From the NCBI RefSeq assembly GCF_000243255.1, contig NZ_CM001436.1, positions 2,458,020-2,522,019 of the forward strand: a stretch of 64,000 bases of DNA, written 5' to 3'. Each line of letters opens with the position of its first letter. Within the stretch, counting starts at the first letter, position 1. The notes under the pieces are model-generated. The model saw nothing but the letters and a program-made list of their open reading frames with translations. It made no database searches and had not been told where the DNA came from. Of the stretch, positions 43,590-59,134 are shown piece by piece. The DNA is from Methanoplanus limicola DSM 2279 (GTDB lineage Archaea; Halobacteriota; Methanomicrobia; Methanomicrobiales; Methanomicrobiaceae). The position numbers were made by a program, and so were the translations under genes.

Positions 43590-43660
43590 ATATTCACCTA
43601 TAGTCATATTCAGCAATAAATGTTTCACAATTATCAATCAGAGAATATCTGAGGATTTAA

Positions 43661-43900
43661 ATTTGAGAATGTGGATTAAAATCTGACAATATGGATTAAA
43701 ATCTGACAATGTGAATTAAACTTTGACAATGTGGATTAAACTTTGACAATATGGATTAAAATCTGACAATGTGAATTAAAATCCGACAATGTGAATTAAA
43801 ATCCGACAATGTGAATTAAAATCTGACAATGTGGATTAAAATCTGACAATGTGAATTAAACTTTGACAATGTGGATTAAACTTTGACAATGTGGATTAAA
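43661..43900. repeat. Tandem array of twelve 20-bp units
   Basis: Twelve head-to-tail units of exactly 20 bp, consensus ATCTGACAATGTGRATTAAA, with a few variants: the first four bases are ATCT, CTTT, ATCC or ATTT, and GTGG alternates with GTGA and ATGG. There are no spacers, so it is not a CRISPR. A 20-bp period puts every unit on the same DNA face, as in iterons or multi-site operators. It is non-coding (20 is not a multiple of three and stops occur). It lies before vapB and after the 3' end of the 43944 gene. Confidence 0.95.
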
Positions 43901-43943
43901 AGCAAATTTTGAAAATTTTTTTCAGGTTTTAAGTAATCTATCT

Positions 43944-44736: not shown

Positions 44737-44921
44737 GTTGCAGCCCTTATTTTGGTGTAACGTCTTGTGCAACCGCCATTCTGCTTCCTTCCGCATATCT
44801 TTATTACCCTGTTGCAGTCCTTATTTTGGTGTAACGCCTTATGCAACTTGAATGTGTCACCTTTCCTCTGCCATTCTGTTTCCCGTTGCAGTCCTTATTT
44901 TGGTGTAACGCCTTATGCAAC
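44737..44921. CRISPR. Mini CRISPR array: three 37-bp repeats, two 37-bp spacers, no cas genes
   Basis: Repeats at 44737-44773, 44811-44847 and 44885-44921. The second and third are identical, beginning GTTGCAGTCC and ending CTTATGCAAC; the first differs at three positions. The ends GTTGCA and TGCAAC are inverted repeats. Spacers are 44774-44810 and 44848-44884, each 37 bp. The degenerate first repeat suggests the trailer end is on the left. A conventional leader is not obvious: 44613-44736 on the left is AT-rich, and on the right an ORF begins at the last repeat. The second spacer is identical to 58688-58724 in the mobile element of this window. No cas gene lies in the window, so function would depend on a Cas set elsewhere. 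Confidence 0.93.
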
Positions 44922-44923
44922 CC

Positions 44924-45274
44924 ATGAAAACTGCTGTGCCTGAATTTTACAGAAAAGAGATTCAGAATTTTGCATTAGCCAGAACAGAGGAAGAAAAAGA
45001 GGAACTTTACGAAGCAAACAGGCAGGATTATGACTATATACTCTTCCCGTCCCGGCGTTCATACGAAATAATCAGAATTCCGACACTCCCATATCCTGAA
45101 GATTACCTCTCCTATCTCGTCAGTGCCTTAATGGGTGATCCTGAAGAGATGGACTCATATGAAAGAGAACTCCTTGTAAGACATGGAATTCTTGAAAAGA
45201 TTAAGACCCACTATCAGCTTACAAAACACGGAGAAGAATTTTTAGAAGTAGTTTGCGGGAAAAAACACCCATAA
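44924..45274 (+). CDS. Hypothetical 116-residue protein at the end of the CRISPR array
   Basis: Not recognised. A charged, soluble protein (FYRKEIQNFALARTEEEKEE, PTLPYPEDYLSYLVSALMGD, ending LTKHGEEFLEVVCGKK). The C-terminal part (ELLVRHGILEKIKTHYQLTKHGEEFL) resembles a winged-helix tail. ATG 44924 is used; an in-frame ATG at 44915 lies in the last CRISPR repeat. If the array is read on the minus strand this gene occupies the leader position. Confidence 0.6.
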   Translation: MKTAVPEFYRKEIQNFALARTEEEKEELYEANRQDYDYILFPSRRSYEIIRIPTLPYPEDYLSYLVSALMGDPEEMDSYERELLVRHGILEKIKTHYQLTKHGEEFLEVVCGKKHP

Positions 45275-45565: not shown

Positions 45566-45638
45566 TTATTATCATTATAATCATTATTATCATCAGTATT
45601 ATCATCAATAATGCCGTTTTCGATCATCAAAACCTATA

Positions 45639-45722
45639 GATCATGATGACCTGACAAAACTATATTATGAGATCATGATGACCTGACAAAACTATATCAT
45701 GAGATCATGATAGCTTGATAAC
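45639..45722. repeat. Direct repeat, 32-bp unit, about 2.5 copies
   Basis: Units at 45639-45670 and 45671-45702 differ by one base and begin GATCATGATGACCTGACAAA; a third, incomplete and diverged, starts at 45703. The unit contains the palindrome ATCATGAT. The stretch 45566-46050 otherwise shows a simple ATTATCATC-rich tract (45566-45610) and no supported gene. Confidence 0.85.
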
Positions 45723-46050
45723 ACCATGTCCTGAAATCAGGAACCTGAAAAATTAAGAGAACCGGAGGATTAAAATCAGGCCGGAAACAGAACAAAATAA
45801 GAAGACATATATATTATCAGACACAATCTCAATATCGGGCGGTCTTTATTCCAAATCACTTCAATCGTCCGGCAGATAAAAAATCCGCATGCCGTTCCGC
45901 CCCGTTGTTTTCATTGCGGCATCTTCGGGTTTTGGGGCGAATGGAACCGGGCAATATCAGATAAAATCCAATATATCCCGGCCCATATAATTTCATAAAT
46001 TTAAGAAGCACTTTTTTCCCGGAAAAATTCAGACCTCTCTGAACAGATAA

Positions 46051-46258
46051 AAAATCCGGCAAACTGCACAGAAATAATCAAAATTACGGTAAACTGCACA
46101 GAAGTAATCAAAATTACGGTAAACTACGCAGAAGTAATCAAAATTACGGTAAACTGCACAGAAGTAATCAAAATTACGGTCACATCATAGAAAAACTCAA
46201 AATTACGGTCACTTCAAAGAAATAATCAAAATTACGGTAAACAACACAGAAATTATAA
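46051..46258. repeat. Tandem array, ~30-bp unit, about seven copies
   Basis: Units start near 46051, 46081, 46111, 46141, 46171, 46200 and 46229; the first five are 30 bp, later ones 29. The core is AAATTACGGTAAACTGCACA followed by GAAGTAATCA. At each junction GTAAT-CAAA-ATTAC forms a 14-bp inverted repeat, so each unit border offers a dimer binding site. The array runs up to the TATA-like ATTATAAAT (46252-46260) of the nitroreductase gene, whose expression it probably controls. Confidence 0.9.
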
Positions 46259-46301
46259 ATACTCAACCGACCGAATGAGAACCAAAAGGAGTGATTATTA
46301 A

Positions 46302-47256: not shown

Positions 47257-47395
47257 AAATTAACATCATGAATATTTCCAAAAATCAAACAAAATGAAAT
47301 TAACATCATGAATATTTCCAAAAATCAAACAAAATGAAATTAACAGCATGAATATTTCCAAAAATCAAACAAAATGAAATTAACAGCATGAATAT
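47257..47395. repeat. Tandem array, 40-bp unit, about 3.5 copies
   Basis: Units at 47261-47300, 47301-47340 and 47341-47380 plus a partial 47381-47395. The unit begins TAACATCATGAATATTTCCA and continues AAAATCAAACAAAATGAAAT; a T/G change (ATCATG to AGCATG) separates the first two from the last ones. It lies 105 bases before the sensor kinase gene. The remainder of the gap 47136-47501 shows nothing else. Confidence 0.92.
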
Positions 47396-50558: not shown

Positions 50559-51587
50559 TCAGCACCTCTCAGCTGCCATCATTGACTGATGGTTCTTACT
50601 GCGGTCAAACAGAGACTTTGACATTTCTGAGATATTATCTTCAGACCACTTCTCAAGCGAATGAAAAAGTTCTGTCCTGTAAAATTCGTTCCTGTCATAG
50701 AGGTTTCTAAAAAGCCTCTCTAAGTCCCTTAAGAGGACCTTTCTGCCGTCCATCTGCGGATAATTGACATTGATGTCGGCAAGCAGGGCACACATAAGGT
50801 CATGTCCGCGGCACAGCTGCATAGGATGGTCGAAATAATCCGGATTTTTGGCCTTCTCAACACTGAGTGCCGCCATGAAATCCTCATACTTTGCCTTATT
50901 CCTGCCGGAGATGAGGGAAAGAAGCTTATCTTCATCACACCTGAAAGTAACAGGATCTGTAAACTCAAGGAATAAATTTTTCTTCTTGCAGTTGATATGC
51001 TTAAATGTCATATTAAAGCCGTATTTCTGGTTTACATAGAGCGAAAGCCCGATGAGCACCGAGCACCGGACAATGGAGGAGAGAATGCTCTCCTTTCTAA
51101 GGCCAATAGTCATATTTCTCTGAAATTCCCCTCCGGCAGAATGCTTCCTGTAATATTCAAGGACTCTCCCGATCAGTTCATCAGAGATTATCATCGTCTC
51201 GATGTCATGTGTGTCTGTCATAAAGACGTTCTCCCTCTCCTCTGTCCCGTCAGGCATAAAGAACGAAAAATCCCGGTCAACAATCCCTATAACTGAACTC
51301 TCTGCATCCTCTTTAAGTCTGTCAGAGAGAGAATCAATAATTTTAATGACATTCTCCTTTGAATTTGCAAACCTTATCTCGGACAGTTCACAGTTAAAAA
51401 ACCGCGAATAGAACTCATAGTCACCCGGCCCTTCGGTGAGGATGAAGATCTTTGACTTAAGCCCGGGATAATTCCTCTCCATCTTCATTATGGTTCCGCC
51501 AATCTCTTCAGGGTCAGCCCAGATCTCCTCAAGCCTGTAGCTTTCGCCGTACCTGCCCGGTCTTCTTCTGCCTTTAATCATCACCAT
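50559..51587 (-). CDS. ariB: DUF4435 TOPRIM-like effector of a PARIS-like defence pair
   Basis: A 342-residue DUF4435 protein. FILTEGPGDYEFYSRFF (about 48-64) supplies the TOPRIM Glu, and IGIVDRDFSF (about 99-108) the D-x-D; THDIETMIIS is the family's third block. In PARIS the ATPase AriA releases AriB (DUF4435 TOPRIM nuclease, shown to cut tRNA) when phage anti-restriction proteins appear. Here the gene overlaps the ATPase gene by 14 bases and follows it, as in PARIS. A type I R-M system 21 kb away is the sort of target whose inhibitors PARIS watches. The name is given from the domain pair and order. Confidence 0.85.
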   Translation of the reverse strand: MVMIKGRRRPGRYGESYRLEEIWADPEEIGGTIMKMERNYPGLKSKIFILTEGPGDYEFYSRFFNCELSEIRFANSKENVIKIIDSLSDRLKEDAESSVIGIVDRDFSFFMPDGTEERENVFMTDTHDIETMIISDELIGRVLEYYRKHSAGGEFQRNMTIGLRKESILSSIVRCSVLIGLSLYVNQKYGFNMTFKHINCKKKNLFLEFTDPVTFRCDEDKLLSLISGRNKAKYEDFMAALSVEKAKNPDYFDHPMQLCRGHDLMCALLADINVNYPQMDGRKVLLRDLERLFRNLYDRNEFYRTELFHSLEKWSEDNISEMSKSLFDRSKNHQSMMAAERC

Positions 51588-53316
51588 GCCCCTCTGACAG
51601 ATCGACAGTATAGTCCCAGTTGGTGTGAATCAGCTGTGGAGAATGGGTTGCTATTATGAACTCCGAACCGGTAATATCTGTGATCTTCTTTATGTAATCG
51701 AGATACTGCCTCTGCCAGACGATATGAAGTGAGATCTCCGGTTCGTCAATTAAGACGAGAGTGCCGGGATCTGTGAAGAAGATGAGGTCGTAGTACATAA
51801 CGAGCTGGTTTTGCTCCCCGGAAGAGAGCCTTTCAGGCTTTATCCTCTCACTGTCGCCGACCGTGAAGTAAAAGCCCCTGTCTGCCCGGATTTCAAACGA
51901 GAGATTCAGGAAGAGTGCGTTTATTATCCGTATCAGCAGGTCGATCTTCTTTTCAAGGTCACTGAATATGAGGTATTTCTTCTCAGTGTCTTCGATGTAC
52001 AGTGTCAGTGCAGCCAAAACCCCGGTCTCGTCCTTTATCTCATCCTCATCTATCTCAAATATCTCGCCTTTTGCCGGCTCATGTGAGAGAAAACCAAGTT
52101 TCTTAAGCTTCTTCTGTTCGAGCCGGATGTTTGAGAGGCTCTGAATGATAGTCTCTGCCGGTGGCAGCAGCCCTTCCGCCATTTCATAGCAGAGCTTCAT
52201 GTACCTGGAAGGATATGTGGCATCAAGCTGCTGCGTGCTGGCGGCGTAATCGTTTAACATCGCCTGGATGCGTTTTTTTATGTCATCCGAATGGTTGAGT
52301 ATTGTCAGTTCATAGGTTCTCTTTGCCCCGGGAATATGGCTGGTTAAGAGATCGTCCTCGCGTTTCTCCCCGGATTCGGAATTCTGCCAGAGCCTCTGGG
52401 CCGATATGAATTTCACAGGAATTGGAGGAATTATCCGGGAGAGTTCCCACGAGGTCTCATCCTCACTGTAGTTGTCAGGATTTACGGTGTATTCAAGTGT
52501 TTTTCCGGCAGAACAGGTTTTGAAATGTAATGACCACATCTCTTTGCCGGGAAGCTTTCTCCCCTTTGGCTTATCCTGGCTCTTCTCTATTGTCAGTACT
52601 CTTCTCTCTGTTGAATTCTCTTCTTCAGTGTAAAAGCCGATCTCTGCCGAACTGAAGGGGATGTCCCTTATCTCTTTTATGTTTCCGACAAACACGGCCC
52701 TAAGAAGCCTGAGTATTGTTGTCTTTCCGTAACCGTTTGGTGCTGTGACAATGGAGATGTGTTCACCGTTCTCAAGCGGAATTTTATGGTTGAATTTTGA
52801 GAAGAGGCCCTTGATATCTATGTATTCCAGTTTTATCCGGTTGAAACGGAGGGGAGAGTCCCTGGTTATGGCATCTATGAGCCGTCCGAGCATTGCTTCG
52901 GTATTCTCTGAATCTAAAAGCGGGAATTCAACCCACTTGTCTGAGAAGAGTTTTGATACGACATCTATGTATTCTGTATGGAGTTTTTGGCTTCCGAGAA
53001 ATACAACCCTTTCGTAGTTTAAGAGGCCGTCTGATTCTGCGTTGATCTCTATTGTATCATATTCAAGGCCGGATTCGGCAAAGGTTTTCGCACTGTAATC
53101 CGGGATTTCCTCATTTGGGAGTAGAAATCCAAAGCGTGGCGAGAGTATTACGTAGTCTTCCTCATAGAAGATTTCACAGTATTCCCGGCATCTTTCTGCA
53201 AGCCTGCCAGTATAGGCGTCTTTTGCCCTGACGTGCCGGTTTTTGTCGAGGTTTGTATCCCAGTCCCAGATCTTTTCTTCCCCTGCGGGAATTATTACCA
53301 GGGTCTTTAGTGCCAT
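51574..53316 (-). CDS. ariA: AAA/ABC-type ATPase of a PARIS-like pair, with an extra N-terminal domain
   Basis: 580 residues. About 1-150 is an extra domain (TLVIIPAGEEKIWDWD, VILSPRFGFLLPNEEIPDYS) that resembles DUF6884-type domains. About 155-580 is an SMC/ABC-like ATPase: Walker A TAPNGYGKTT (about 191-200), signature LSSGEQNQLVMYYDL, Walker B TLVLIDEPEISLH and the switch His in IIATHSPQLI. The latter half fits AriA-like AAA_21/AAA_15 ATPases that form a ring holding AriB. Published AriA proteins start near the ATPase part, so the N-terminal fusion is unusual as far as I know. Confidence 0.85.
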   Translation of the reverse strand: MALKTLVIIPAGEEKIWDWDTNLDKNRHVRAKDAYTGRLAERCREYCEIFYEEDYVILSPRFGFLLPNEEIPDYSAKTFAESGLEYDTIEINAESDGLLNYERVVFLGSQKLHTEYIDVVSKLFSDKWVEFPLLDSENTEAMLGRLIDAITRDSPLRFNRIKLEYIDIKGLFSKFNHKIPLENGEHISIVTAPNGYGKTTILRLLRAVFVGNIKEIRDIPFSSAEIGFYTEEENSTERRVLTIEKSQDKPKGRKLPGKEMWSLHFKTCSAGKTLEYTVNPDNYSEDETSWELSRIIPPIPVKFISAQRLWQNSESGEKREDDLLTSHIPGAKRTYELTILNHSDDIKKRIQAMLNDYAASTQQLDATYPSRYMKLCYEMAEGLLPPAETIIQSLSNIRLEQKKLKKLGFLSHEPAKGEIFEIDEDEIKDETGVLAALTLYIEDTEKKYLIFSDLEKKIDLLIRIINALFLNLSFEIRADRGFYFTVGDSERIKPERLSSGEQNQLVMYYDLIFFTDPGTLVLIDEPEISLHIVWQRQYLDYIKKITDITGSEFIIATHSPQLIHTNWDYTVDLSEGHGDD

Positions 53317-53512
53317 TCTTTTAAATTATGAGCCGGAATGCAGATTAATGTAGCGAATGGCCGGTATGATAGAATATTTTGATAATCGGAAATTCAAAGA
53401 GGGGTTTTATCCGGCCTTTTTGGTCATGATTAATCCCGGAGAATTCCTCTCTCTTCAGGAGGAACTTCACATCTTCCTCCGGGCAGTCTGACTGGATTTC
53501 AGGAGATTTTTT

Positions 53513-56026
53513 TCAGTGCTCTTTTAACAGCTCAATTCTGTAATTTTTCAGCTCTTCTTTTCTCATATCCGATTCAGGCATTGCTTTTCTTAGAGTACTG
53601 TAAAAGCCCTTACTATGGTTTGGATGGTGGTAGTGGCAGAGTTCATGGGCAACGATATATTCTGTCAGATGGCCTGAGACCATAGCGAGCCTTTCATTGA
53701 ATTTAACGAGATCTCTTCCCGGTGTGCACTGTCCCCAGAACCTTTTGGAGTAGCAGATTTTTATATCCGGAACTGATATTCCAAAGATTTTTGAATATTT
53801 TGGCAGGTATTTTCTAACCTCCTCTCTCGTTAAATCCTGCATGTATTCTGTAACTTCCTGTTCTATGCAGTAATTCTCATCAATGGCATCCTTTGGGATG
53901 GTGACAGTCAGATAACCTTTTTTCAGTTCCGGTCTTCTAATCTTATGTGATTTTACCGCCCGGATCTTTACTTTCTTTCCTTTAATATAGAACGGTGCTC
54001 CGTTATAGAACCCGATTCTCTGTGCAGTCTTTCTCTCTTCATTGCTGATTGTTTCATGAATGAAGGCAGCATTCTCCGCCACCATCTTTTCAACATCTTC
54101 CGGTGCTGCACTGAAGGGCACTACCACCTCGACCGTATCATCTTCATGTATTTTTACGCTGAATTTTTTGGCTCTCTTTGAGTATTTTACTGTGTAACTG
54201 TAGGTTTCACCATTGTAAGTTATAGTGTGGTCAGTTTTGCTGTAAACTCCGGCCTTCTCAACAAGGGGATAATTTTCTGCAATCCACTGCCGGTTGTATT
54301 TTAAAACGGAATATATCTCTTTTTCTTCTGCGCCAAAGGGAGCGGTGACTATGAGCTTTGGCCCGTTTATAATCTTTATTCTTACCTTCCTGAAACGGCT
54401 GCCATACTCTACTGTGAAGGGGATGTCTCTGCCGGAAACTCTGAAAGTCCCTTCACCGTTTTCAGGCTCATGAGATGGCTCTTCCACCTTTGGTTCCGGA
54501 ATATTACCCATATTTCCGGCTGTAGAAGCCTTTAATCTCCTGATTTTTTCGTGGATTTCAGGAGCACTCTGACTGACAGTTCTCTCAACTTCCTGTACAT
54601 CTGCATGAAGAGGGGCTGAAACTTCAATTATTCCACCCATTATTATATTGATTCTTATGTTTTTTGACCTCTTGAGGTACCTGACTGTATATCTGTATAT
54701 CTCACCGTTATATGTCAGGGTGTGCTCACTCCGGCCGTTTACTCCGGCCTTCTCCACAAGCTGGTAGTTGTCATAGATCCACTCACTGTTCATCTCCAGT
54801 ATACCGCAGATGTAATCCCTGCCTATACCCAAAGGGGCATTAACAACAAGTTTTGGACCCTCTTTTATCTCAACACCAGCGCTTTTCAGACGGCTTTTAT
54901 ATATGACTGTGTAAGGAATTTCTCTGCCAAAAACTTTGAAAACTCCTTCGTGCAGTTCCCGGAAATCACTGTTTTCATCCGGATATTTCTCTGATTCTTT
55001 GAAATAGTCATGGACATTGCAGATATGGTCCAGAACCATACCTTCAATATCCTCGTTTTTTGTATACCGGGGAGTGGTAACTTTGATTATGCCGCCTTCC
55101 AGAGTTTCGACCTCAAATCCTTTAATCTTCCTGCTGTATCTGACTGTATAATTGTAGGTGACACCGTCATACTCGATGGAATTGTCTGTTCTGCTCTCAA
55201 TTCCGGCATACTCTAAAAGGATAAATTTTTCACTGATCCAGTCTTTGTTTGCTTCCAAAGCATCGGTGATCTCCTGCTCTTTTGTTCCGGGCGGTGCGGT
55301 AATCAGAATTTCCGGTCCTTTTTTAATCTCGATTCCAATATTTTTGTGCCGGACCCCGCATCTGACAGTGACTGAGACCTCAGCGCCTGCTATATGGATT
55401 GTTCCGCTGCTAAAAAGAGAGCTGTCTGCTTCATCATAATTATCCGGATTTGTGTTTATTTTTTCCAACCTCTTCTCTTCTGCATCGTTAAGCCTTTCAT
55501 CTATGGTCTTTAGCGTAAATGTCTCAAGTATTTCGTTCAGTCTTATTTCGGCAGGATTTGCATCAGAACTATCATTATGAGATTTTTGGGAGTTATCCTC
55601 TTTATCTCCCTTTTCCGGTTCTGCTCCATCTCCAAATGAGAATAACCCTTTCTGCTCGCTTTTAACGAAGGCCGGATTTTTAATCTTCTCACCCGCAATT
55701 ATGAGTTCTGCATCCTCTGCACTTATTGGCACTTTATGCCATGAATCTGAAAGATTTAATCCATTATCAAATATCATACTTAATGGATTAACAAAATTAT
55801 TAATACTCTGGTTAATTTCTTTGAGTGCCCTAATAGTTTCAATGTTTGATTTTATCATGGGGGTTAAGGCCATAAGCAGGATGCGTATCTCCTCTTCGTT
55901 AAACTTTGGCGGCGAGAATACCAGTACCTTTTTTTCACCTCTGAATTCAATCCCTATTTCATCTGTCCCTTCAGTATACTCTGTTTTATACATGAAGGAG
56001 AGGCCGTTGTGCCGATATCTGCCCAT
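53513..56026 (-). CDS. YgjP/DUF45-like zinc metallopeptidase with many N-terminal beta repeats
   Basis: 837 residues, where the family is usually ~230. The C-terminal ~200 hold the peptidase: TEYIVAHELCHYHHPNHSKG (HExxH as HELCH plus a third His), preceded by KRFWGQCTPG typical of YgjP (C-x-S/T-R-x-W-G region). The N-terminal 600 hold about seven copies of a 60-70-residue beta module, for example VRIKIINGPKLIVTAPFGAE, NIGIEIKKGPEILITAPPGT and GVEIKEGPKLVVNAPLGI, each followed by a helix with N-x-x-WI. This module is the one before the peptidase in normal YgjP. Such peptidases often neighbour type I R-M genes; here PARIS and a type I locus are near. Confidence 0.88.
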   Translation of the reverse strand: MGRYRHNGLSFMYKTEYTEGTDEIGIEFRGEKKVLVFSPPKFNEEEIRILLMALTPMIKSNIETIRALKEINQSINNFVNPLSMIFDNGLNLSDSWHKVPISAEDAELIIAGEKIKNPAFVKSEQKGLFSFGDGAEPEKGDKEDNSQKSHNDSSDANPAEIRLNEILETFTLKTIDERLNDAEEKRLEKINTNPDNYDEADSSLFSSGTIHIAGAEVSVTVRCGVRHKNIGIEIKKGPEILITAPPGTKEQEITDALEANKDWISEKFILLEYAGIESRTDNSIEYDGVTYNYTVRYSRKIKGFEVETLEGGIIKVTTPRYTKNEDIEGMVLDHICNVHDYFKESEKYPDENSDFRELHEGVFKVFGREIPYTVIYKSRLKSAGVEIKEGPKLVVNAPLGIGRDYICGILEMNSEWIYDNYQLVEKAGVNGRSEHTLTYNGEIYRYTVRYLKRSKNIRINIIMGGIIEVSAPLHADVQEVERTVSQSAPEIHEKIRRLKASTAGNMGNIPEPKVEEPSHEPENGEGTFRVSGRDIPFTVEYGSRFRKVRIKIINGPKLIVTAPFGAEEKEIYSVLKYNRQWIAENYPLVEKAGVYSKTDHTITYNGETYSYTVKYSKRAKKFSVKIHEDDTVEVVVPFSAAPEDVEKMVAENAAFIHETISNEERKTAQRIGFYNGAPFYIKGKKVKIRAVKSHKIRRPELKKGYLTVTIPKDAIDENYCIEQEVTEYMQDLTREEVRKYLPKYSKIFGISVPDIKICYSKRFWGQCTPGRDLVKFNERLAMVSGHLTEYIVAHELCHYHHPNHSKGFYSTLRKAMPESDMRKEELKNYRIELLKEH

Positions 56027-56135
56027 TGTTATTTATTTTATTTTTTAAGAGAAAAGAGGTTTTTGTTTTTGCAGTTTATCTATAAGTCCCTGACGGATAA
56101 GTGGTACAGATGTTTTAACCCGGAATATTTAGTGA

Positions 56136-57509
56136 TTACATATCATCAAGGTCAAAGACAAAGTAGCCATCCTTACGCAAAGACTCTTTATCGTGGACTT
56201 TTTTTGCAAAGAGTGCAAAATGCTCCTTTCTGGTTTCATTGTTCCATTTCACATATTCTGACTTTCTTTCAAGATCTTTTATCACATTAACAGCATCTTT
56301 TTTATCAAGTGTTTTCCACTTACATTCACCAAATAAGACCTCTTTTGTCTCCTGACTGACCACAATGATGTCTATCTCCTCTTCTTTATACCACCAGCGT
56401 TTAACATCCGAAAAGTAAAAAGGCATGAGGATCTCCTTTATTTTGATCTGCTCTATTACAAAGTTTTCAAATTCTTTTCCATAATATGAATTAATCTGAA
56501 AAGAAATCCGGGAGTAAACCTCATCCACAAGTCCGATTTCAAGGTCAGAAAGATTTGGATAAACAAATCTGAACCAGAACCTGAAATACTGGTCGTTGAT
56601 TTCATAGATTCCGCCCTTTCTTTTTCCAAGTGGCAGTATATGCTCAATGAAATGAAGATTCTGAAGCACTGAAAGATATTTTGAGAGATTTCCCTTCTCT
56701 ATTCCGGTGACTGAAGATATTTCGCCCTGCTTATTATAGCCCAGTGAGAGATATTTAAGAATCAGGGTATAGACCTTTGGTTCCCTGAACTCCTCCCTTA
56801 GTAAAAACAGGGGTTCGTTATAAAGGACCTCTCCCTTCCTCAGTATTTTATCCCTGATGTTTTCTTCAACGGTTAAGGTTTTGTCCAGTTTGTGGAGATA
56901 AAAAGGAACTCCGCCACATATGGCACGGAACCTGAACAGGTCTGCCTTATCATGGGCACTGAAAAAATGTTTCATATGCTTAAACTGCATTGGAGATACT
57001 TTCCACTCGCCTGTACGCCTGCCATAAAGGGGACTTTTGTAGCCCAGAACTTCAGTCTCCATCATTCCCATTGAAGAACCGCATATTATCAGGGATATGT
57101 TACTGCCTGCAAGAATTTCATCGCAGATCTTCTGGAATACTGATACAATCCCACGGTTTAACTCTATCAGGTATGGAAATTCGTCAACAGCTATTATTGC
57201 CTTTCTGTTCCCCATTTCATCTCTGAGATATCTGAAGAGTTCATAAAAGTTTGAGGGGTCTAAATTCCGGAAGTAATCTTTTCCGGTTAAAAGAGCAAAT
57301 TTCTCCTTCATCTCCTTTATGTTCTCTGCAACGCTGTCATTGGTACAGAGAATGTATACGCCTTCTTTGTCTTCAATGAACTTTTTTATAAGCTCAGTCT
57401 TTCCAATCCTCCTTTTACCATAGATGACGATGACCTGGGATGAATCTTCTGCACATTTCCCGTTTAAAAAATCAAGTTCCCTCTCTCTGTTGATGAATGG
57501 TTGTATCAC
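56136..57509 (-). CDS. Archaeal AAA ATPase of the DUF234/DEXX-box type
   Basis: 457 residues from GTG 57509. Walker A VIYGKRRIGKTELI (about 28-41), Walker B AIIAVDEFPYL, a sensor LIICGSSMG and a helical middle, then a winged-helix (YNKQGEISSVTGIEKGNLSKYLSVL) and the C-terminal DUF234 nuclease-like domain with a D-x-x-E-x-K-like set (EEIDIIVVSQETKEVLFGECKW). Widespread in archaea, function unsettled; a chaperone or mobile-element-linked role has been proposed. A perfect 13-bp palindrome touches its start codon. Confidence 0.88.
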   Translation of the reverse strand: MIQPFINRERELDFLNGKCAEDSSQVIVIYGKRRIGKTELIKKFIEDKEGVYILCTNDSVAENIKEMKEKFALLTGKDYFRNLDPSNFYELFRYLRDEMGNRKAIIAVDEFPYLIELNRGIVSVFQKICDEILAGSNISLIICGSSMGMMETEVLGYKSPLYGRRTGEWKVSPMQFKHMKHFFSAHDKADLFRFRAICGGVPFYLHKLDKTLTVEENIRDKILRKGEVLYNEPLFLLREEFREPKVYTLILKYLSLGYNKQGEISSVTGIEKGNLSKYLSVLQNLHFIEHILPLGKRKGGIYEINDQYFRFWFRFVYPNLSDLEIGLVDEVYSRISFQINSYYGKEFENFVIEQIKIKEILMPFYFSDVKRWWYKEEEIDIIVVSQETKEVLFGECKWKTLDKKDAVNVIKDLERKSEYVKWNNETRKEHFALFAKKVHDKESLRKDGYFVFDLDDM

Positions 57510-57522
57510 AAGTATAATACTT
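57510..57522. promoter_or_regulatory. 13-bp palindromic operator at the DUF234 gene start
   Basis: AAGTATAATACTT, perfect arms around a central base, directly abuts the GTG start codon at 57509 of the gene at 56136. Confidence 0.6.
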
Positions 57523-57621
57523 TACCTACAACTATTTAATGTTTTTAGACGGATTAATGCACTATTCTTTACTGCCCCTCTTTAATTGGTCCTGTCTGCC
57601 ACACATATAATGTTGTATGGT

Positions 57622-57634: not shown

Positions 57635-57875
57635 ATTATACAAATATGTGGACTAAGTTTGCCGGTCTGAGTGAAATTCTATAGGCAAAATGTCCACTAT
57701 GTCTCCCAAATTTTACCTGATTTTTGTCAGGAAACAGAATTTGACAGTTTTATTGAAAATAATCTCATTAAAAAAATATCAAAAAATAGTTTAGAACATC
57801 TCTAAAAGAGCCGCTGGGGAGAGTATTTTAACTGGTGGTCTAAAGCCTTTAATTTAATCTGATGGATTTCGCAAT

Positions 57876-58457
57876 TCAGTTTTCATTTAATTTGTTGTAG
57901 ATAGTTGTCCGGGAAACTCCATATCTTTTTGCGATCTTAGATATTGGTACCCCTTCAGCCTGAAGCCTCTTAATGTCAGCAGTAGAAATATCCGCTTCAG
58001 GTCTTCCTACCCTCTTTCCCTCCGCTCTTGCCCGGTCTAATCCGGCTTTTGTACGTTCGATGATAATTTCTCTTTCGTACTCTGCAATACTACCTATAAT
58101 ATGATAGAATAATCTTCCGGACGGGGTTGTTGTATCAATGTTATCTGTGACAGATACGAGACCAATATTATGATCAGCTAACCATTGAGCAATTTTGATT
58201 AAGTCAGATAATGATCTTCCTATCCTGTCAAGTTTATAGATCATCACAGCCCGGATCTCTAAAGGATTCTTTTCAAGGTCTTTAAGCATCTGCTGAAAGC
58301 CTGTTCTGTTTGTGTTCTTCCCTGATGCTTTGTCAGTGTAAACCTGAACAATATCAAAGTCCTTTACCTGGGCGTACTCCTTTAATTTGATGATCTGGTT
58401 ATCCAAGTTTTGATCATCAGTGCTGACTCTGGCATATATGCACACTTTTTCCGGCAT
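57876..58457 (-). CDS. Serine recombinase, resolvase/invertase family
   Basis: 193 residues. The resolvase catalytic domain has CIYARVSTDDQNLDNQ (catalytic Ser at about 12), KASGKNTNRTGFQQML and IYKLDRIGRSLSDLI; then EYEREIIIERTKAGLDRARAEGK and a C-terminal Hin-type helix-turn-helix (GVPISKIAKRYGVSRTTIYNKL). It may resolve, invert or integrate the element that continues to the right. No inverted repeats that would mark an invertible segment were found nearby. Confidence 0.94.
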   Translation of the reverse strand: MPEKVCIYARVSTDDQNLDNQIIKLKEYAQVKDFDIVQVYTDKASGKNTNRTGFQQMLKDLEKNPLEIRAVMIYKLDRIGRSLSDLIKIAQWLADHNIGLVSVTDNIDTTTPSGRLFYHIIGSIAEYEREIIIERTKAGLDRARAEGKRVGRPEADISTADIKRLQAEGVPISKIAKRYGVSRTTIYNKLNEN

Positions 58458-58558: not shown

Positions 58559-59134
58559 CTATGGTTTTTCTTCCAGAATAGTATAACCCTTATCTGAACC
58601 GAACTTCCGGATCTCCAGATAACCATTTACCCCGTATGCCTGACCGGGGACCCAACCTTTCTTAGCTTCATATCTGCCAGTGCGGGTATTGAATGTGTCA
58701 CCTTTCCTCTGCCATTCTGTTTCCCATGCGAAAAGATAGATCTGAATTCCTGTTGCTGTTATTATGGGGATGCCTGGGCGGGAGACCTTCGGGAAATGTC
58801 CTGGGAAGAATCTGATCTTCCCGTCTATAGTGAATTTGTAACAGGAGCGTGTATCTGGTGTAATTATGCTTAGAGCATAATAGAGAACCGGAATGATCTT
58901 TGTTCCTACTTTTTTAACAAGCTCTCCGGAAGGGGTTACATATATGATCTTTTTATTCAGATCATATATCCGGAAAAGTCTTTCAGGGTTTGGGTATTGT
59001 TCCGGGATGCTCTCCCCAGAGAATAGATAATTTGTTTTTGTCTTAAGCCATGCAGAGAACATTTTATATTCATGAAGGAGAGGGTTATTAAAATCATTCA
59101 GGGTTGTTTGAGATATGGATTTTATCATATACAT
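58559..59134 (-). CDS. Mobile-element protein of unknown function, CRISPR-targeted
   Basis: 191 residues, not recognised. Mixed beta-rich protein (RIYDLNKKIIYVTPSGELVKK, GKIRFFPGHFPKVSRPGIP, YLFAWETEWQRKGDTF), no membrane segment or enzyme motif. It overlaps the preceding small membrane-protein gene by 41 bases if ATG 59134 is used; ATG 59128 is also possible. Positions 58688-58724 in this gene are identical to a CRISPR spacer at 44848-44884. It is the last gene in a long minus-strand run of small genes typical of an archaeal virus or plasmid. Confidence 0.7.
   Translation of the reverse strand: MYMIKSISQTTLNDFNNPLLHEYKMFSAWLKTKTNYLFSGESIPEQYPNPERLFRIYDLNKKIIYVTPSGELVKKVGTKIIPVLYYALSIITPDTRSCYKFTIDGKIRFFPGHFPKVSRPGIPIITATGIQIYLFAWETEWQRKGDTFNTRTGRYEAKKGWVPGQAYGVNGYLEIRKFGSDKGYTILEEKP
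58688..58724. other. Protospacer: 37/37 match to the second CRISPR spacer
   Basis: The + strand here is identical to spacer 44848-44884 (begins TTGAATGTGTCACC, ends CATTCTGTTTCCC). Flanks differ from the CRISPR repeat: GGGTA on the left and ATGCG on the right. The two flanks are the candidates for the PAM, depending on array orientation. Confidence 0.97.

Follow-up and report, generated by a model that had tools for sequence, protein, structure and literature searches.

A short CRISPR array on the chromosome of Methanoplanus limicola DSM 2279 is very probably what is left of a collapsed, inert type III-A locus, in which an old spacer records a mobile element now resident in the same chromosome or a close relative of it. 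The array lies in a 64-kb stretch of DNA (64,000 nucleotides, referred to here as the window) and consists of three 37-bp repeats and two 37-bp spacers, with a constant repeat length and unique spacers (Table 1). The locus adds one more case to a type already known and brings no new mechanism. The published description of the M. limicola DSM 2279 genome lists zero CRISPR repeats (PMC4149034), so both the stub and its exact target have been off the record there.

Table 1. Positions in the window of the array, the adjoining gene remnant and the features of the integrated element.
Feature	Position	Strand	Remarks
Repeat 1	44737..44773	-	Degenerate, 3 mismatches against repeats 2 and 3; leader-distal (trailer) end
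Spacer 1	44774..44810	-	37 nt, without protospacer match
Repeat 2	44811..44847	-	37 nt; 84-87% identity to type III-A array repeats of relatives
Spacer 2	44848..44884	-	37 nt; equals 58689-58725; crRNA would come off the minus strand
Repeat 3	44885..44921	-	Now the last repeat; leader past repeat 3 absent
Junction	44922..44923	.	Repeat 3 stands 2 bp ahead of the CARF/HTH start codon
Remnant CARF5/HTH gene (P0001)	44924..45274	+	116 codons; MKTAV joined in frame to C-terminal HTH half
Probable attL	57809..57819	+	AGCCGCTGGGG; 11-bp copy of the tRNA-Thr(CGT) end
Serine recombinase (resolvase family)	57876..58457	-	PF00239, E=2.8e-47
Target gene	58559..59134	-	191 aa, no known family; protospacer inside
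Protospacer of spacer 2	58689..58725	+	Flanks GCGGGTA and ATGCGAA

Spacer 2 and its protospacer are identical at 37/37 positions, and a search of the whole genome (3,200,946 bp, one contig) returned this single match outside the array; a chance match of a 37-mer in 3.2 Mb is of the order of 1e-16. The identity ends precisely at both repeat borders and involves no longer repeat. An earlier note made from the sequence had described the same two-spacer array with a self-match at all 37 positions, which was confirmed, although it placed the target at 58688-58724, one base too low (the correct position is 58689-58725). No protospacer for spacer 1 was found in viral contigs (exact 22-mer search) or in phages or plasmids (blastn), and nothing above chance-level 18-mers was seen in 232 genomes of the order; phages likewise gave no match to spacer 2, and viral contigs gave none to a degenerate pattern of it. 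Spacer 1 has 13 of 14 nt in common with spacer 2 (and its target) in the same orientation, a likeness that was equalled in 29 of 20,000 shuffles, and the sequences hint that both spacers may have come from related genes.

The target belongs to an element of about 13.7 kb that is integrated at the tRNA-Thr(CGT) gene, in line with the earlier description of an integrated virus- or plasmid-like element. The stretch that is syntenic with the sister species (G120) stops at about 57587, synteny returns at tRNA-Thr(CGT), 7.5 kb to the right of the window, and the matching tRNA end is found 13.7 kb to the right of attL (L072:7469). The chance of the 11-bp attL repeat alone was estimated at about 1 in 10; it is the position of the tRNA gene and the break in synteny that make attL and tRNA-Thr the probable site of integration. 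Genes for a serine recombinase and a tyrosine integrase lie near the two ends of the element. For the target protein, searches of phages, viral contigs and genome contigs gave no relative, and the order has a single partial one (in G104). Most proteins of the element had no PHROG or Pfam match and two had no relatives in viral contigs; the element is best termed ‘virus- or plasmid-like’, the PHROG, Pfam and viral-contig searches having assigned no virus family. A related element at another place in the sister species (G120:C1:2626000-2640000, L087) has several genes in common with it, including the integrase, and is devoid of the target gene. Beyond the right edge of the window the element contains 100 consecutive N (L072:4516-4615; G000:C1:2526535-2526634), which probably mark a scaffold gap.

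True arrays with repeats 84-87% identical to those of the window were found when 232 genomes of the order were searched; a scan of genome contigs for the exact repeat pattern found none, because the repeats of these relatives differ at at least five positions. The same repeat family is used in type III-A loci of G056, G154 and G208 and, more distantly, of G119 and G121. The neighbourhoods in these relatives are those of complete type III-A systems (cas10, csm2-5, cas6, cas1, cas2, CARF5/HTH and csx1) with arrays on both sides; PADLOC called Cas10, Csm2-5, Cas6, Cas1/Cas2, CARF5 and Csx1 in G056, and Cas10, Csm4, Cas6, Cas1, CARF5 and Csx1 in G119. G121 and G119, which are of the same family as M. 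limicola, have the layout array-leader-cas2-cas1-CARF/HTH-csx1; their array and CARF gene are oriented to each other as they are in the window, and the same cas2-cas1-CARF-csx1 cluster is carried by a further member of the family (G116). The window resembles these Methanomicrobiales type III-A (Csm) loci in repeat family and spacer length and in having a CARF5/HTH gene with an MKTAV start, whereas it lacks every cas gene as well as the leader, csx1 and the CARF domain. What is retained is thus a repeat family and an ancillary CARF gene in the orientation seen in the loci of the relatives, from which the layout of the ancestral Methanoplanus locus can be tentatively inferred. At the syntenic site the sister species has a transposase gene and transport genes, with no comparable repeat and no CARF fragment. 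Around the CRISPR remnant there is a cluster of four tandem-repeat patches (43610-43941, unit 20 nt; 45638-45733, 32 nt; 46017-46284, 30 nt; 47257-47395, 40 nt).

The statement in the earlier note that no cas genes are nearby holds for intact genes, but a fragment of a type III CARF/HTH gene, starting 2 bp past the last repeat, had been overlooked. The open reading frame of this remnant (P0001) begins at 44915 inside the last repeat, ahead of the native start codon at 44924; a fusion of the last repeat inside the CARF gene was considered and rejected on the strength of the native MKTAV start. The protein matches PF24744 (CARF-associated HTH, E=6e-10) in Pfam and positions 143-245 of 246 of the CARF5 model in PADLOC, and shares 42-52% identity with six full-length relatives over their C-terminal halves. 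Its first five residues are the conserved start of full-length CARF5/HTH relatives. Because the native start and the C-terminal half are both present, the CARF domain, about codons 6-142, has been lost in frame. The HTH frame is open with its conserved motifs intact, and the 42-52% identity is close to the divergence among intact relatives; this counts against the reading of an inert remnant, and would mean either a recent collapse or a fragment that has kept some function. Repeats 2 and 3 are identical, which shows the array itself to be scarcely decayed as yet.

In the relatives, read in the orientation used here, the conserved inter-array sequence (the leader) follows the repeats on their right side and the degenerate repeats are found on the left. 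Since the degenerate repeat of the window array is also the leftmost one, transcription of the array would have run from right to left, and a crRNA from it would carry the 5' handle ACTGCAAC. The conserved leader of the relatives is absent on either side of the array (the leader comparison gave 23/23 matches in G056 against a background of 12/23), which agrees with the earlier remark that there is no clear leader. The junction lies where the same-family relatives carry leader, cas2 and cas1, and with the last repeat 2 bp from the CARF start these are missing from exactly the expected interval. No cas remnant besides CARF was found in the window, where csx1, cas6, the csm genes and cas10 have left no fragment. 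Genome-wide, there was no Cas10 apart from a weak generic HD-domain match common to most of the family, no match to the profile that calls the Cas6 of the relatives, and no Cas3-HD; the possibility of an effector acting in trans (type I or other) was checked through Cas3-HD and Cas6. The sole cas1 gene of the genome is distant and solitary (G000:C1:986793-987584; L005:16680-17615), with no array or other cas gene beside it within the 40 kb read. It lies near the gene for the large subunit of DNA polymerase II, which has an intein-like match. With the promoter-bearing leader, Cas6 and the effector gone, the array would make no functional crRNA and the match of spacer 2 would be without present consequence. 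Of the options set out in the earlier note, that interference is off is the one upheld by a deletion remnant in a genome that has a distant solo cas1 and no Cas10, Cas6 or Cas3-HD.

Judged by comparison with the relatives, deletions have very probably dismantled a type III-A (Csm) CRISPR-Cas locus here, and the array is the stub of its trailer end. One deletion would have brought a repeat to within 2 bp of the CARF/HTH start codon, and another would have taken out CARF/HTH codons 6 to about 142 without a shift of frame; the remainder of the locus downstream would also have been lost. Spacer 2, which sits at the old end of the array, was most likely acquired from this element, or from a near-identical relative, while the system worked.

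It could be argued that autoimmunity drove the collapse, self-targeting having been toxic and only cells that deleted the leader, cas genes and CARF domain having survived. The element would have integrated, or the spacer been taken from the integrated element, whilst the system was active; neither version is likely. The perfect match of spacer and target and the total loss of effector and adaptation genes would fit such a history, and self-targeting is known to select for mutations in cas genes or in the target (PMC3630108; PMC5754349). However, type III interference needs a crRNA that is antisense to the target RNA (PMC5576922), and with the leader on the right the spacer-2 crRNA would have the sense of the target mRNA (the target gene is on the minus strand and is the only long open reading frame there) and hence be useless to interference. 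On the + strand no long open reading frame crosses the protospacer. Even a live type III complex should therefore not see the target transcript, and the match would probably have been tolerable; the element could integrate and stay whether the system was alive or not. In one type III-B system that has been studied, spacers are acquired in both orientations and autoimmune selection purges the antisense ones (PMC5576922). The collapse may also predate the element. Autoimmunity is thus possible as a cause of the collapse, but it is not needed. Whether the element came in despite immunity, as the earlier note offered as one option, no longer matters today; an active type III-A system, too, should not have seen a same-sense target mRNA.

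It is improbable that the in-frame loss of the CARF domain is more than decay and that the 116-residue HTH protein has been kept as a constitutive regulator released from cyclic-oligoadenylate control, with the array stub just upstream of its start codon; defence genes, for example the solo cas1, might then be among its targets. The mini-CRISPR arrays known from archaeal viruses have very few spacers and no adjoining cas genes, and sit in viral genomes. The window array is alike in its few spacers and in having no cas genes beside it, and it has just two spacers, one of them matching a virus-like element. A device for superinfection exclusion or regulation was one of the options in the earlier note; such a device would work with host Cas proteins. 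This is very improbable, since the array is a remnant of a chromosomal locus: it lies beside the truncated CARF/HTH gene of type III-A kind, 13 kb outside the borders of the element (57809 to tRNA-Thr) and in sequence syntenic with the sister species, it has no leader, and no host Cas6 or effector was found. There is hardly any likelihood that the match is an accident of chance or assembly, in which two genomes were joined or a longer repeat was shared. The genome is a permanent draft and the element has a 100-N gap to the right of the window; nevertheless, the window itself contains no N, so that no gap separates array and target within its 64 kb, the array is flanked on both sides by sequence syntenic with the sister species (36.9-44.7 kb and 45.4-57.6 kb), and the match, with its one outside copy in the genome, stops at the repeat borders.

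A collapsed, inert type III-A locus is thus preferred, and it has counterparts in known systems. Self-targeting spacers against integrated mobile elements are known and have been reviewed (PMC6990116); here too a spacer equals a provirus-like element in the same chromosome, but with the effector lost and the spacer in the sense of the target mRNA, no targeting is expected. For the CARF-wHTH regulator MM_0565 of Methanosarcina mazei, binding to CRISPR leaders and induction of a solo cas1 have been reported (PMC7465815). By its description it may be likened to P0001, as a CARF and winged-HTH protein tied to a methanogen CRISPR locus, whereas in the remnant the CARF domain is deleted. By family-level comparison, the case shows how a complete type III-A locus can shrink until two old spacers and a stub of the HTH gene remain, and yet preserve a perfect match to an element that now resides in the chromosome. 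For ‘orphan self-targeting mini-arrays’ in general, deletion scars and spacer orientation should be checked before a regulatory role is proposed.

Two further features of the window lie between the array and the element. At 50559-53316 (minus strand) there is an overlapping gene pair like the PARIS defence system (an AriA-like ATPase, PADLOC E=1.9e-24, and AriB/DUF4435, E=2.2e-19), in a region that is syntenic in the sister species. The adjacent 4 kb (53510-57587), encoding a YgjP-like metallopeptidase protein and a DUF234 ATPase, are 92.6% identical to the sister species, against about 67-75% in the flanking synteny, suggesting recent transfer or strong constraint.
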